A stretch of DNA of 64,000 bases from Carnegiea gigantea (Eukaryota > Streptophyta > Magnoliopsida > Caryophyllales > Cactaceae): assembly GCA_029747015.1 (NCBI GenBank), contig JAKOGI010000143.1:37501-101500 (forward strand). Reading direction: 5' to 3'. Shown one piece after another: positions 51,371 through 59,265 of the stretch (the first letter of the stretch is position 1; each line of letters opens with the position of its first letter). The notes under the pieces are model-generated. The model did no database searches. It was not told the DNA's origin and saw only the letters and a list, made by a program, of their open reading frames with translations. The position numbers and the translations under genes were made by a program.

Positions 51371-54300
51371 TTAATCACGGGGATACAAATCAGTGATTGT
51401 CTCTGTTCCCGTGTATGTATGATGACCTTGATCAGGCTTAACAGGGTTGCCAAAAAACCTGGGTGCCCTTGGCTCCGGAAGGCCAATAGAAGGCCTACTT
51501 AAGGCATCTAGAATCCATCCCATCCTGGGTCTTTGAATTGCATCCTCTTGGATGCATAATAGCCCAATCTGATAGCACCTTATTGCTTCTTCATGTGAGA
51601 AATCTTCGTTTAGCGTTGTATCCACCAAATCCAACGCTTTACCCTCATTCCAAAGCCTCCACGCCTGTGCAAGCAATGAAAGATCAATGATGGTATCTTT
51701 AATTTCATTTCTTGTTCAGCTTTGGCTTCAATATAGAAGCAATTACCATAAGGACATTTATCTTACTGGGCAACGAGACTTACTTGGTGTAACAATGCTT
51801 CCTCACCTTGCAATCCACCAATAAATCTGTTCTTCTGGCCGCTTATTATCTCAAGCACTATGACTCCAAAACTATAAACATCCGACTTTACCGAGTAGTG
51901 ACCCGTTATCGCATATTCTGGAGCCATGTAGCCACTGTATTAACACAGAACAAATATTTAATTTGTTAGCAAGTAATACGAAAATTTTATGCAATAGTAT
52001 TTACAAAATAAAGGACAACGAAATGTGGATAATTAATGACATTTATGGTGTATCACTCCATATCTTGCTCAGGTTTTGATGTCTTACTATGTGCCAACAA
52101 TTCTGATAGTGTCACCTTGAGTTTGGCCCTCCCCAAAAAGTTTTGCCAATCCAAAATCGGATATCTTCGGATTCATACTATCATCTAGCAGTATGTTGCT
52201 TGTCTTGAGATCCCGATGGATTACCTTTAGTCGTGAATCTTCATGAAGGTACATAAGCCCCCTTGCAATGCCAACAATAATATTTAACCTTGTTTGCCAG
52301 TCCATTGATGCACTATTTGTTCGATCTGCAATATCATTGTTAAGTATTACCTTTAAGTGTTGACTGAAATTAACTATTAACATGTATGACACAATCTTCC
52401 TAGCTCCACTTTGCCTATCAACGGAATTGGTCAAAACAATTATGTGATAGCTATTTGTGTGAGATTTTATGAAACGAAGTTACATAAAGAGTTAAACATA
52501 TTACCAAATAGAAATCGGTCTAAACTTGAGTTGGGGAGAAATTCGTAAACTAGTATTTTCTCCTTGGATGTCACACAAAATCCCAAGAGCTTGACCAAGT
52601 TTTTATGTTGAAGTCTTGCAACAAGAACAACCTCGGTTTTAAACTCTATAACTCCCTGTTTAGAGTTTTGCAAGAGCCTCTTCACTGCAACTTCTTGCCC
52701 ACTGGCAAGTTTACCCTGATCAATATGCCAGGAATAAATCAGCTATGCAGAAAGAAAATATACGTGCAAGAAGAAACACCTTCGACTCTGATCAAATGGT
52801 CCATTCATACGGGAGAGATATATTTCCTCTGATTTTGAAATGAAAAGAAATTCCATTAATAAAACCAAACAATTTACAAGCAACATGAACTCTGCCAAAC
52901 ACATATCTTAAAATTTTAAACATCATATATCATCAATCAAGTTTGGATTTTTTGATGAACTTAGTGGAACACGGGGGATGCAAGTTATAAGGAAAGTGTA
53001 GGTCTGAAAGTCATAAACTACTTGTCGAGTAAAATTGACTGTTACAGACATCATCATTGTGAATTTGATGAACTCTCGCAATCGATAACATAGGATAACA
53101 TTACCTTGTAAACCTCTCCAAATCCACCTTCTCCTAGCTTGTTATCGATAGAGAAGTTGTGTGTTGCTGCTCTAATTGTACTTATGTCAAATTGCAAGGA
53201 TTCCATAGTGCTAATCTCGTCTATGTCCGCTGCACATAATTAGTAAGAAACTGATCATAGACAGCACCGACTTTTGCTAATTTGATCATACGTACAATAC
53301 AACCTATAACCTTGTATTACATGACTTTGTGCCAGATCTTTACCAAACTGAAATGCAACTTACCGTAATACCTCTCCCTGGCCTTCTTTTTCTTCATTAA
53401 AATCCAAATTCCAAGAAATAACAAAATCAATATAGTGGTCGATGTTGGAACCGCAATTGCCAGCACAGTCGGAACTTGCAACTTCTTCGTTTTCGTAGAA
53501 TTACCTGCATATGTAAGTTCCACAATACTTGTGAAAAACAAAGCAGAAACACTATGGTTTAAGACTATAAGTTTCTGAAGAACTTGTTTGATTATGTTGT
53601 GGATTCTCGATCTCACTCAACCTGTTCATCTAAAAAGATCAATATGTTACCATTTGGTGTTGTTCTCTTTCCACCTTCCATGTTGGATATTTTGTTCTCA
53701 TTTTCATCTCATCTTATAAATTCAGCTGTCATCTTGTTCTGAATTCTTGACTGGAATTTAAGTTGTTGCTCGAAATCTCTCTTGATAAACAAATTTCTTA
53801 AGTTTTCTCCTGAACAATTTCCTTCAAATCCTAATTCTCTATAAAATCCTTGAAAATTTTAAAATGGACACCTATAAAAATTAACTATTATTGCTAAATT
53901 CTAGATCATGTAAAAATGAGGCACCATTGCCACCAATTTCTAATCCCTATACCCATACACTTCAAATACTTCGGCAATGGTTTTAGAAATTTTTTGGCAC
54001 AATTTTGCCACCTAAAAGAGAACAATGAGTCTAGGATTGTCTCCTTATTAGGAGCGCAATTGGCTTGATCCATGGATCTGATATTAAATCAAATTCATCG
54101 AAGTCTACCCTTTATGAATTTTGAATCCAAATTCAATTGAACATCCAAAGATTTTGTCCAAGCAAAGACTTGCTGCTAGATTTAAAAACTGTGGACTACG
54201 TACTACTCCATAGAAAGATGTAAACCACAATTTAAAGAGGCATTTTGATTTAGTTCATTATAGCCATAGCTCATAAGTAGCAAGCAAACAAAGAAGCTAT

Positions 54301-59265: not shown

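Follow-up and report, generated by a model that had tools for sequence, protein, structure and literature searches.

A predicted cactus receptor kinase combining DUF26 and thaumatin-like domains, and its possible origin in a tandem gene array

The window considered here (the whole stretch of 64,000 nucleotides) contains a run of minus-strand exons in which two DUF26 domains, a thaumatin-like (TLP) domain and a kinase follow one another. This raises the question of whether the locus encodes one receptor and, if so, from which families its parts were drawn. The reading preferred here, with a probability of roughly 0.6, is that of one composite receptor kinase, made by a rearrangement that set the first exon of a CRK before the body of a TLP-kinase.

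The exons were re-derived. As stated in the original prediction, they amounted to nine on the minus strand, separated by eight GT-AG introns and displaying matching phases; their coding length of 2733 nt corresponds to 910 residues plus a stop (911 codons).

58455..59265, minus strand: exon 1, encoding the signal peptide and both DUF26 domains; phase-1 end with donor ATG/GTAAGT
55385..56054, minus strand: exon 2, thaumatin-like domain with 16 cysteines and cleft RHHTD versus REDDD; phase 1 in, phase 2 out
54429..54520, minus strand: exon 3, Ser/Pro linker; weak donor ACG/GTTATT
53364..53504, minus strand: exon 4, TM segment and lysine-rich juxtamembrane stretch; conserved in paralog E at 63128-62988
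53105..53229, minus strand: exon 5, kinase, glycine loop
52505..52715, minus strand: exon 6, kinase, catalytic lysine
52088..52325, minus strand: exon 7, kinase, HRD and DFG motifs (RD kinase)
51784..51934, minus strand: exon 8, kinase, APE region
51371..51664, minus strand: exon 9, kinase C-terminus and stop

The domain order announced from the letters alone (two DUF26 domains, a 16-cysteine thaumatin, a Ser/Pro linker, a TM segment and an intact kinase) agreed with Pfam, with the cysteine positions and with the motifs: from N- to C-terminus, the layout is signal peptide, DUF26, DUF26, TLP, Ser/Pro linker, TM and RD kinase. Pfam matched Stress-antifung in two stretches (5e-31), Thaumatin at residues 281-487 (4e-52) and the kinase at residues 598-866 (4e-48); a match to ABC1 was also listed, under its cut-off. 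Direct reading of the sequence revealed C-X8-C-X2-C in both DUF26 domains of exon 1 and intact kinase motifs. The ectodomain is thus not restricted to DUF26 but includes a Thaumatin domain as well. Passages of PMC6368629 give seven exons as the usual CRK structure: one for the extracellular part (signal peptide and two DUF26 domains), one for the TM and five for the kinase. Gene C of the window (see below) follows this plan, and so does the composite gene, except that it displays nine exons, the two extra ones encoding the TLP domain and the linker, and a kinase of the TLP-kinase type.

Protein searches scored 7988 and 7969 candidates, of which the best 120 of 368, the best 120 of 7965 and all 42 matches were listed; further composites may rank lower. 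The co-occurrence of DUF26, TLP and kinase in plant proteomes, which the original prediction had named as a check, was encountered among the best 120 of 368 whole-protein matches in P0002 of saguaro (Carnegiea gigantea) and in P0016 and P0003 of quinoa (Chenopodium quinoa); with our own profiles, these were the only three of the 275 fetched proteins to carry all three domains. A profile search from the TLP domain onwards yielded 15 TLP-kinases devoid of DUF26 among the best 120 of 7965 matches. They came from Silene, Gypsophila, Saponaria, Bienertia, quinoa, spinach and Amaranthus tricolor and, with Heliosperma P0001 from the whole-protein search, made up 16 TLP-kinase proteins. Carnegiea belongs to the Cactaceae, quinoa, Bienertia, spinach and Amaranthus to the Amaranthaceae and Silene, like Gypsophila, Saponaria and Heliosperma, to the Caryophyllaceae; all are Caryophyllales.

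The window gene was nearest to saguaro model P0002 (Cgig2_011191), which likewise combines DUF26, TLP and kinase in one predicted protein: the part between exon 5 and the C-terminus (338 residues) was 92.6% identical, and the second DUF26 domain (DUF26-B) with its linker 69.5% over 95 residues. A cactus or a close relative is accordingly the most likely source of the DNA. P0002 looks like a badly modelled ortholog. It has no TM, part of its N-terminus is read in another frame of the exon, and intron sequence stands where the linker and TM exons belong; being an automatic prediction, it is no proof of splicing. The quinoa proteins P0016 (CRK25 isoform X2) and P0003 (A0A803M242) share the three domains with the window gene but, unlike it, display an ordinary CRK kinase and DUF26 domains of another CRK lineage. 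P0003 continues into a second DUF26 and kinase, which probably belong to a neighbouring CRK: this second DUF26, labelled composite in the DUF26 tree, is identical to that of CRK P0013. TLP-kinases from Amaranthaceae and Caryophyllaceae (such as P0172 of Bienertia, P0174 of quinoa, P0180 of spinach and P0121 of Silene) resemble the window gene in their succession of TLP, Ser/Pro linker, TM and kinase, with 45-55% identity from the TLP domain to the C-terminus (61% for P0270, over 63% of that length). They differ from it by the absence of DUF26, and they appear in databases as 'CRK 6', 'CRK 15' or 'PR5-like receptor kinase'. Separately, Ambrosia P0122 displayed thaumatin, S-lectin and kinase parts in one gene model, which may reflect either a fusion or faulty modelling.

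The three junctions around the TLP and linker exons were considered individually. In two-sequence BLASTP comparisons with the low-complexity filter off, the linker and TM stretch of the composite aligned with TLP-kinases of other species (6e-17 to P0172, 9e-15 to P0174 and 9e-11 to P0181), which supports junctions 55385/54520 and 54429/53504. Junction 58455/56054 recurred in the separately made saguaro model P0002 (...GSETGDG/GETGKFT). Scored as positions out of nine against a donor consensus, the exon 1 donor was near-consensus (8/9) with a fitting phase and the intron 3 donor was weak (6/9), two donors of the kinase region scoring 5 and 6.

The composite gene is part of an array of five CRK-like genes, all on the minus strand, of which the fifth (paralog E) is cut by the window end.

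60942..63128, minus strand: paralog E, TM and kinase exons; 93.8% protein identity to the composite over 385 residues
42300..46160, minus strand: gene C, an ordinary CRK; exon 1 at 46160-45278, own TM and ordinary CRK kinase; 3' limit approximate
9089-10660, 12648-13406, 14737-16424 and 17932-18672, minus strand: two further CRK-like genes, each with a DUF26-like exon followed by kinase exons
48409-51125, inserted directly behind the 3' end of the composite: Copia-like element (by eye) with a pair of LTR-like repeats (89% identity) and a gag-like frame at 49270-50628

The ectodomain of paralog E falls beyond the window end. Over the 385 codons of TM and kinase, differences between the composite and E were mostly silent (Ka/Ks 0.28, Ks 0.10), a pairwise value that applies to the two copies together and does not distinguish which of them is constrained. 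Gene C, in which no TLP was found, sits 5 kb downstream of the composite, and the two have nearly alike upstream regions and first exons: exon 1 of the composite belongs to a stretch of 985 bases that matches the corresponding region of gene C at 96.5% identity. Their first exons displayed a Ks of 0.026 and a Ka/Ks near 1 on 19 changes, some of which fall in the divergent linker end; the sequences suggest that conversion between them is likely. At its end (45278), exon 1 of gene C appears to have a GC donor (AATG/GCAAGT) where the composite displays GTAAGT.

Positions 63445-58205 (E body, intergenic region and composite exon 1) were collinear with 54317-45044 (composite body, intergenic region and exon 1 of gene C). 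Matched pieces of this tandem unit were 78-96.5% identical, and the second copy contained insertions, namely the Copia-like LTR element and smaller inserts. This collinear repeat suggests a route by which CRK and TLP-kinase parts met. Near-identical repeats of this kind (96.5% between the exon-1 regions of composite and gene C, 89% between the kinase bodies of composite and E) could also mislead assemblers, so that their collapse, or the annotation, would have turned exon 1 and the TLP-kinase body into false neighbours. Such a chimera is considered very improbable, given that both copies of each repeat are present in the window with distinct flanks and insertions, and that the same order is found in saguaro, which was assembled separately.

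Other repeats were observed in the window. The homology between E and the composite stops in intron 3 (63447-64000) at a CCCAACA edge, where an LTR element appears to end. At 31424-41949, two LTR-like repeat copies share 96% identity and are separated by ~7.5 kb, and 19077-25548 contains a direct repeat of 3.1 kb (97% identity). Intron 1 of the composite contains, at 56784-56587, a tRNA-like stretch (SINE-like at 56768-56605) between direct repeats CTTGTATTAGCAAAATT; ARAGORN found no tRNA gene in this intron, and by eye the stretch is more likely a SINE.

In 11 of the 16 TLP-kinases, the TLP domain was immediately preceded by a short hydrophobic N-terminus that looks, by eye, like a signal peptide. 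Other or cut N-termini were found in P0162, P0218, P0247 and P0270, while P0001 had the peptide but a cut TLP start. The composite has no such signal peptide of its own; the corresponding position is occupied by an out-of-frame relic.

56055..56158, minus strand: relic of a TLP-kinase signal peptide; opens with an ATG at 56158, in a frame other than that of exon 2

The relic frame meets a stop after 45 residues, inside exon 2. As a phase-1 donor it offers a single GT, 17 bases ahead of the TLP exon, which leaves too little room for an intron, so that the relic has no usable donor. It was compared with nine of the 11 family peptides by shuffling (raw counts, several tests): 1, 2, 5, 7 and 27 of 2000 shuffles were as good for P0171, P0170, P0172, P0174 and P0168, respectively, and 121-217 of 2000 for P0121, P0180, P0181 and P0167, against 785 of 2000 for the CRK signal peptide. 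The resemblance exceeded that of the shuffled sequences for five of the nine, and neither for the other four nor for the CRK peptide. From these sequences we conclude that the TLP-kinase part lost its own start while the downstream frame stayed open. On the composite model, the TLP domain would be secreted only through splicing from the upstream CRK DUF26 exon.

The same region could alternatively be read as two genes, in which the DUF26 exon would yield a secreted protein by read-through into intron 1, and the TLP-kinase would either use its own promoter and an unrecognised first exon or be dead through the breakage of its signal peptide. TLP-kinases elsewhere do stand alone with their own signal peptide, the relic of one is still in place here, the frame of exon 1 meets a stop ~50 bases beyond its donor, and intron 1 contains one hydrophobic start with a phase-1 GT (ATG at 57936). 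This reading is nevertheless quite unlikely: an open frame of 2.7 kb is unexpected in a long-dead gene, changes relative to E in TM and kinase are mostly silent, the exon 1 donor is near-consensus (8/9) in the right phase, and saguaro displays the same join.

A third alternative accepts the single gene, with the TLP and linker exons usually skipped, exon 1 being spliced to exon 4 to give a CRK of ordinary appearance (656 residues) with a TLP-kinase-type kinase, and the TLP domain remaining a passenger or a minor isoform. These two exons indeed form a phase 1-1 cassette whose skipping preserves the frame, and the exon 3 donor is weak. Silene latifolia P0261 has the architecture thus expected (two DUF26 domains and a TLP-kinase-type kinase, with no TLP) and is a further ectodomain exchange; no TLP remnants above noise were found in P0261, P0257, P0260 or P0093. 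Features of the TLP domain itself point in both directions. It evolves fast, being only 77.6% identical to that of saguaro P0002 versus 92.6% for the kinase part, and its branch in the TLP tree is about three times longer (0.23 vs 0.079 for saguaro); this low identity and long branch make relaxed constraint or decay of the window TLP possible. Three of the five acidic-cleft residues are lost (RHHTD vs REDDD). On the other hand, its frame is open, all 16 osmotin cysteine positions are occupied by cysteine, 15 or 16 of 16 are kept in the other three composites, and the saguaro model retains the join. Habitual skipping is considered unlikely, if less so than two separate genes, and the single composite receptor is retained as the preferred reading.

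The cleft residues varied among relatives. They read REDND in the saguaro composite and RGFAD and RGNAD in those of quinoa. Of 14 TLP-kinase rows (13 proteins), five displayed REDDD, six had one change, two had two and one, from spinach, had three (RDNSD); the window, with three, thus differs from 13 of these 14 rows, which have at most two. Some grass PR5Ks likewise lack two or three cleft residues. A passage of PMC3048497 ties the REDDD residues of TLPs to antifungal or lytic activity. In the window gene, three changed cleft residues alongside 16 kept cysteines suggest that the TLP domain most likely serves as a binding or scaffold fold rather than in an antifungal or lytic role, and a binding or spacing fold is proposed for the composites in general.

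Family membership was examined with three domain trees. For the kinase tree, 67 of 277 proteins were picked by group, giving 73 rows, as some proteins contributed two kinases. The window gene, paralog E and saguaro fell inside a TLP-kinase clade of 22 rows (100/100, starred), composed of these three, the 16 TLP-kinases and Silene P0257, P0260 and P0261, which lack a TLP. The ordinary Caryophyllales CRKs sampled formed a separate group beside it (23 rows including the quinoa composites; 94/96, not starred), in which the quinoa composite kinases adjoined Bienertia CRK10 P0093 (100/100). In a smaller kinase tree of 60 rows the cactus and Silene branches were unjoined; they were joined once Amaranthaceae rows had been added. 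The PR5Ks in this 60-row tree were seven from grasses, and their kinases formed a clade of their own on a branch of 1.84.

From the TLP tree (41 rows), 22 of 58 TLP domains (grass PR5Ks) had been left out by hand, and seven more (P0111, P0218, P0270 and grass proteins P0149, P0156, P0158 and P0160) were dropped for covering less than 75% of the TLP profile. The window TLP grouped with those of Amaranthaceae and Caryophyllaceae TLP-kinases (18 rows; 90/90, not starred); window and saguaro were paired (100/100) outside the rest (100/97), and the quinoa composites grouped with Amaranthaceae TLP-kinases (92/69). In the DUF26 tree (39 rows), where P0002 was represented by its in-frame DUF26-B part only and P0003 by half of one domain, the window exon clustered with gene C and saguaro (100/100) and the quinoa composites with another CRK, P0014 (92/80).

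Insertion of a PR5 module into a CRK was rejected by the kinase tree (100/100) and by the TLP tree (90/90). Since kinase and TLP both group with TLP-kinases, the DUF26 exon was the captured part. The original idea of a PR5 module joined to a CRK thus stands as to the composite, which is the best reading, and is reversed as to its direction. A single origin of all four composites was also rejected, by an AU test of two trees on the TLP domain (p 0.019), in which the group had been fixed by architecture before the tree and both composite stems were long (0.65 and 0.85), so that model pull could matter; the differing kinase and DUF26 placements contradict it as well. As the three domain trees agree, the DUF26-TLP fusion probably arose twice, in quinoa apart from window and saguaro, with moderate support at some nodes. 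Quinoa P0016 indeed displays the same DUF26-TLP join built from other parts.

The exon anatomy, the relic, the tandem repeat and the family placement are observed features of this locus, and a route can be proposed from them. Where CRKs and TLP-kinases stood side by side in a tandem array, a rearrangement would have brought a CRK exon 1 upstream of a TLP-kinase body, the captured piece comprising the upstream region, the signal peptide, two DUF26 domains and a phase-1 donor. Tandem duplication or unequal exchange may have joined CRK intron 1 to the 5' flank of the TLP-kinase, an event of which the tandem repeat is the expected trace. The fusion may date from the event that formed the repeat, or may have been copied by a later exchange: the kinase tree groups the composite with E to the exclusion of saguaro (95/65, not starred), yet saguaro has the join. 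Both borders being in phase 1, exon 1 and the TLP exon could be joined in frame through splice sites that already existed and, with the TLP-kinase's own start dead, secretion of the ectodomain would rely on the DUF26 exon. The CRK signal peptide would direct secretion of the product, which exon 4 would anchor in the plasma membrane and which would signal through its RD kinase as CRKs do, the DUF26 and TLP domains possibly sensing together. The term 'immune receptor' may suit it, judging by the families of its parts.

Passages of PMC6368629 describe CRKs that have exchanged ectodomains and kinase domains, as well as chimeras that followed tandem duplication; a search found no occurrence of the word thaumatin in this text. 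In a table passage of an ectodomain survey of ten species, none of them Caryophyllales (PMC7333395), B-lectin with thaumatin is listed and DUF26 with thaumatin is not. Parts of a large survey (PMC10834447) treat TLP-kinases as a separate family. PR5K or TLP-K proteins of Arabidopsis, poplar and grasses share the TLP-TM-kinase plan with the composite (passages of PMC3048497 and PMC6822995); they have no DUF26, and the kinases of the seven grass PR5Ks are far from that of the composite. For these seven, the earlier view that a thaumatin domain goes with another type of kinase is correct; it is not general, CRK-like or SD-like kinases bearing TLPs in Silene, spinach, apple, pear and sesame. As for the claim that the layout is undescribed, no description of DUF26-TLP-kinase was found in the titles, abstract starts and passages of the open-licence literature, but P0002, P0016 and P0003 are database precedents. 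The composite can be regarded as a variation on known receptor families whose genomic route is legible, with an apparently independent parallel in quinoa.

A wider proposal is offered tentatively, at somewhat less than even odds: DUF26 and thaumatin may have been fused at least twice in Caryophyllales, in cactus by a TLP-kinase capturing a DUF26 exon and in quinoa by a TLP placed inside a CRK, owing to common tandem arrays and a phase-1 border, the fused TLP repeatedly losing its cleft to become part of a compound sensor.

If expressed, the composite would unite in one receptor two defence-linked ectodomains that the literature, as far as its passages go, puts on separate receptor families. 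Its origin is legible within one window, from the captured first exon, the dead signal peptide, the compatible intron phase and the tandem repeat, and a second, apparently independent case sits in the crop plant quinoa. The finding also points to TLP-kinases with CRK-like kinases, filed in databases as CRK or PR5K, and makes it testable whether new plant receptors come from first-exon swaps between neighbouring receptor genes.
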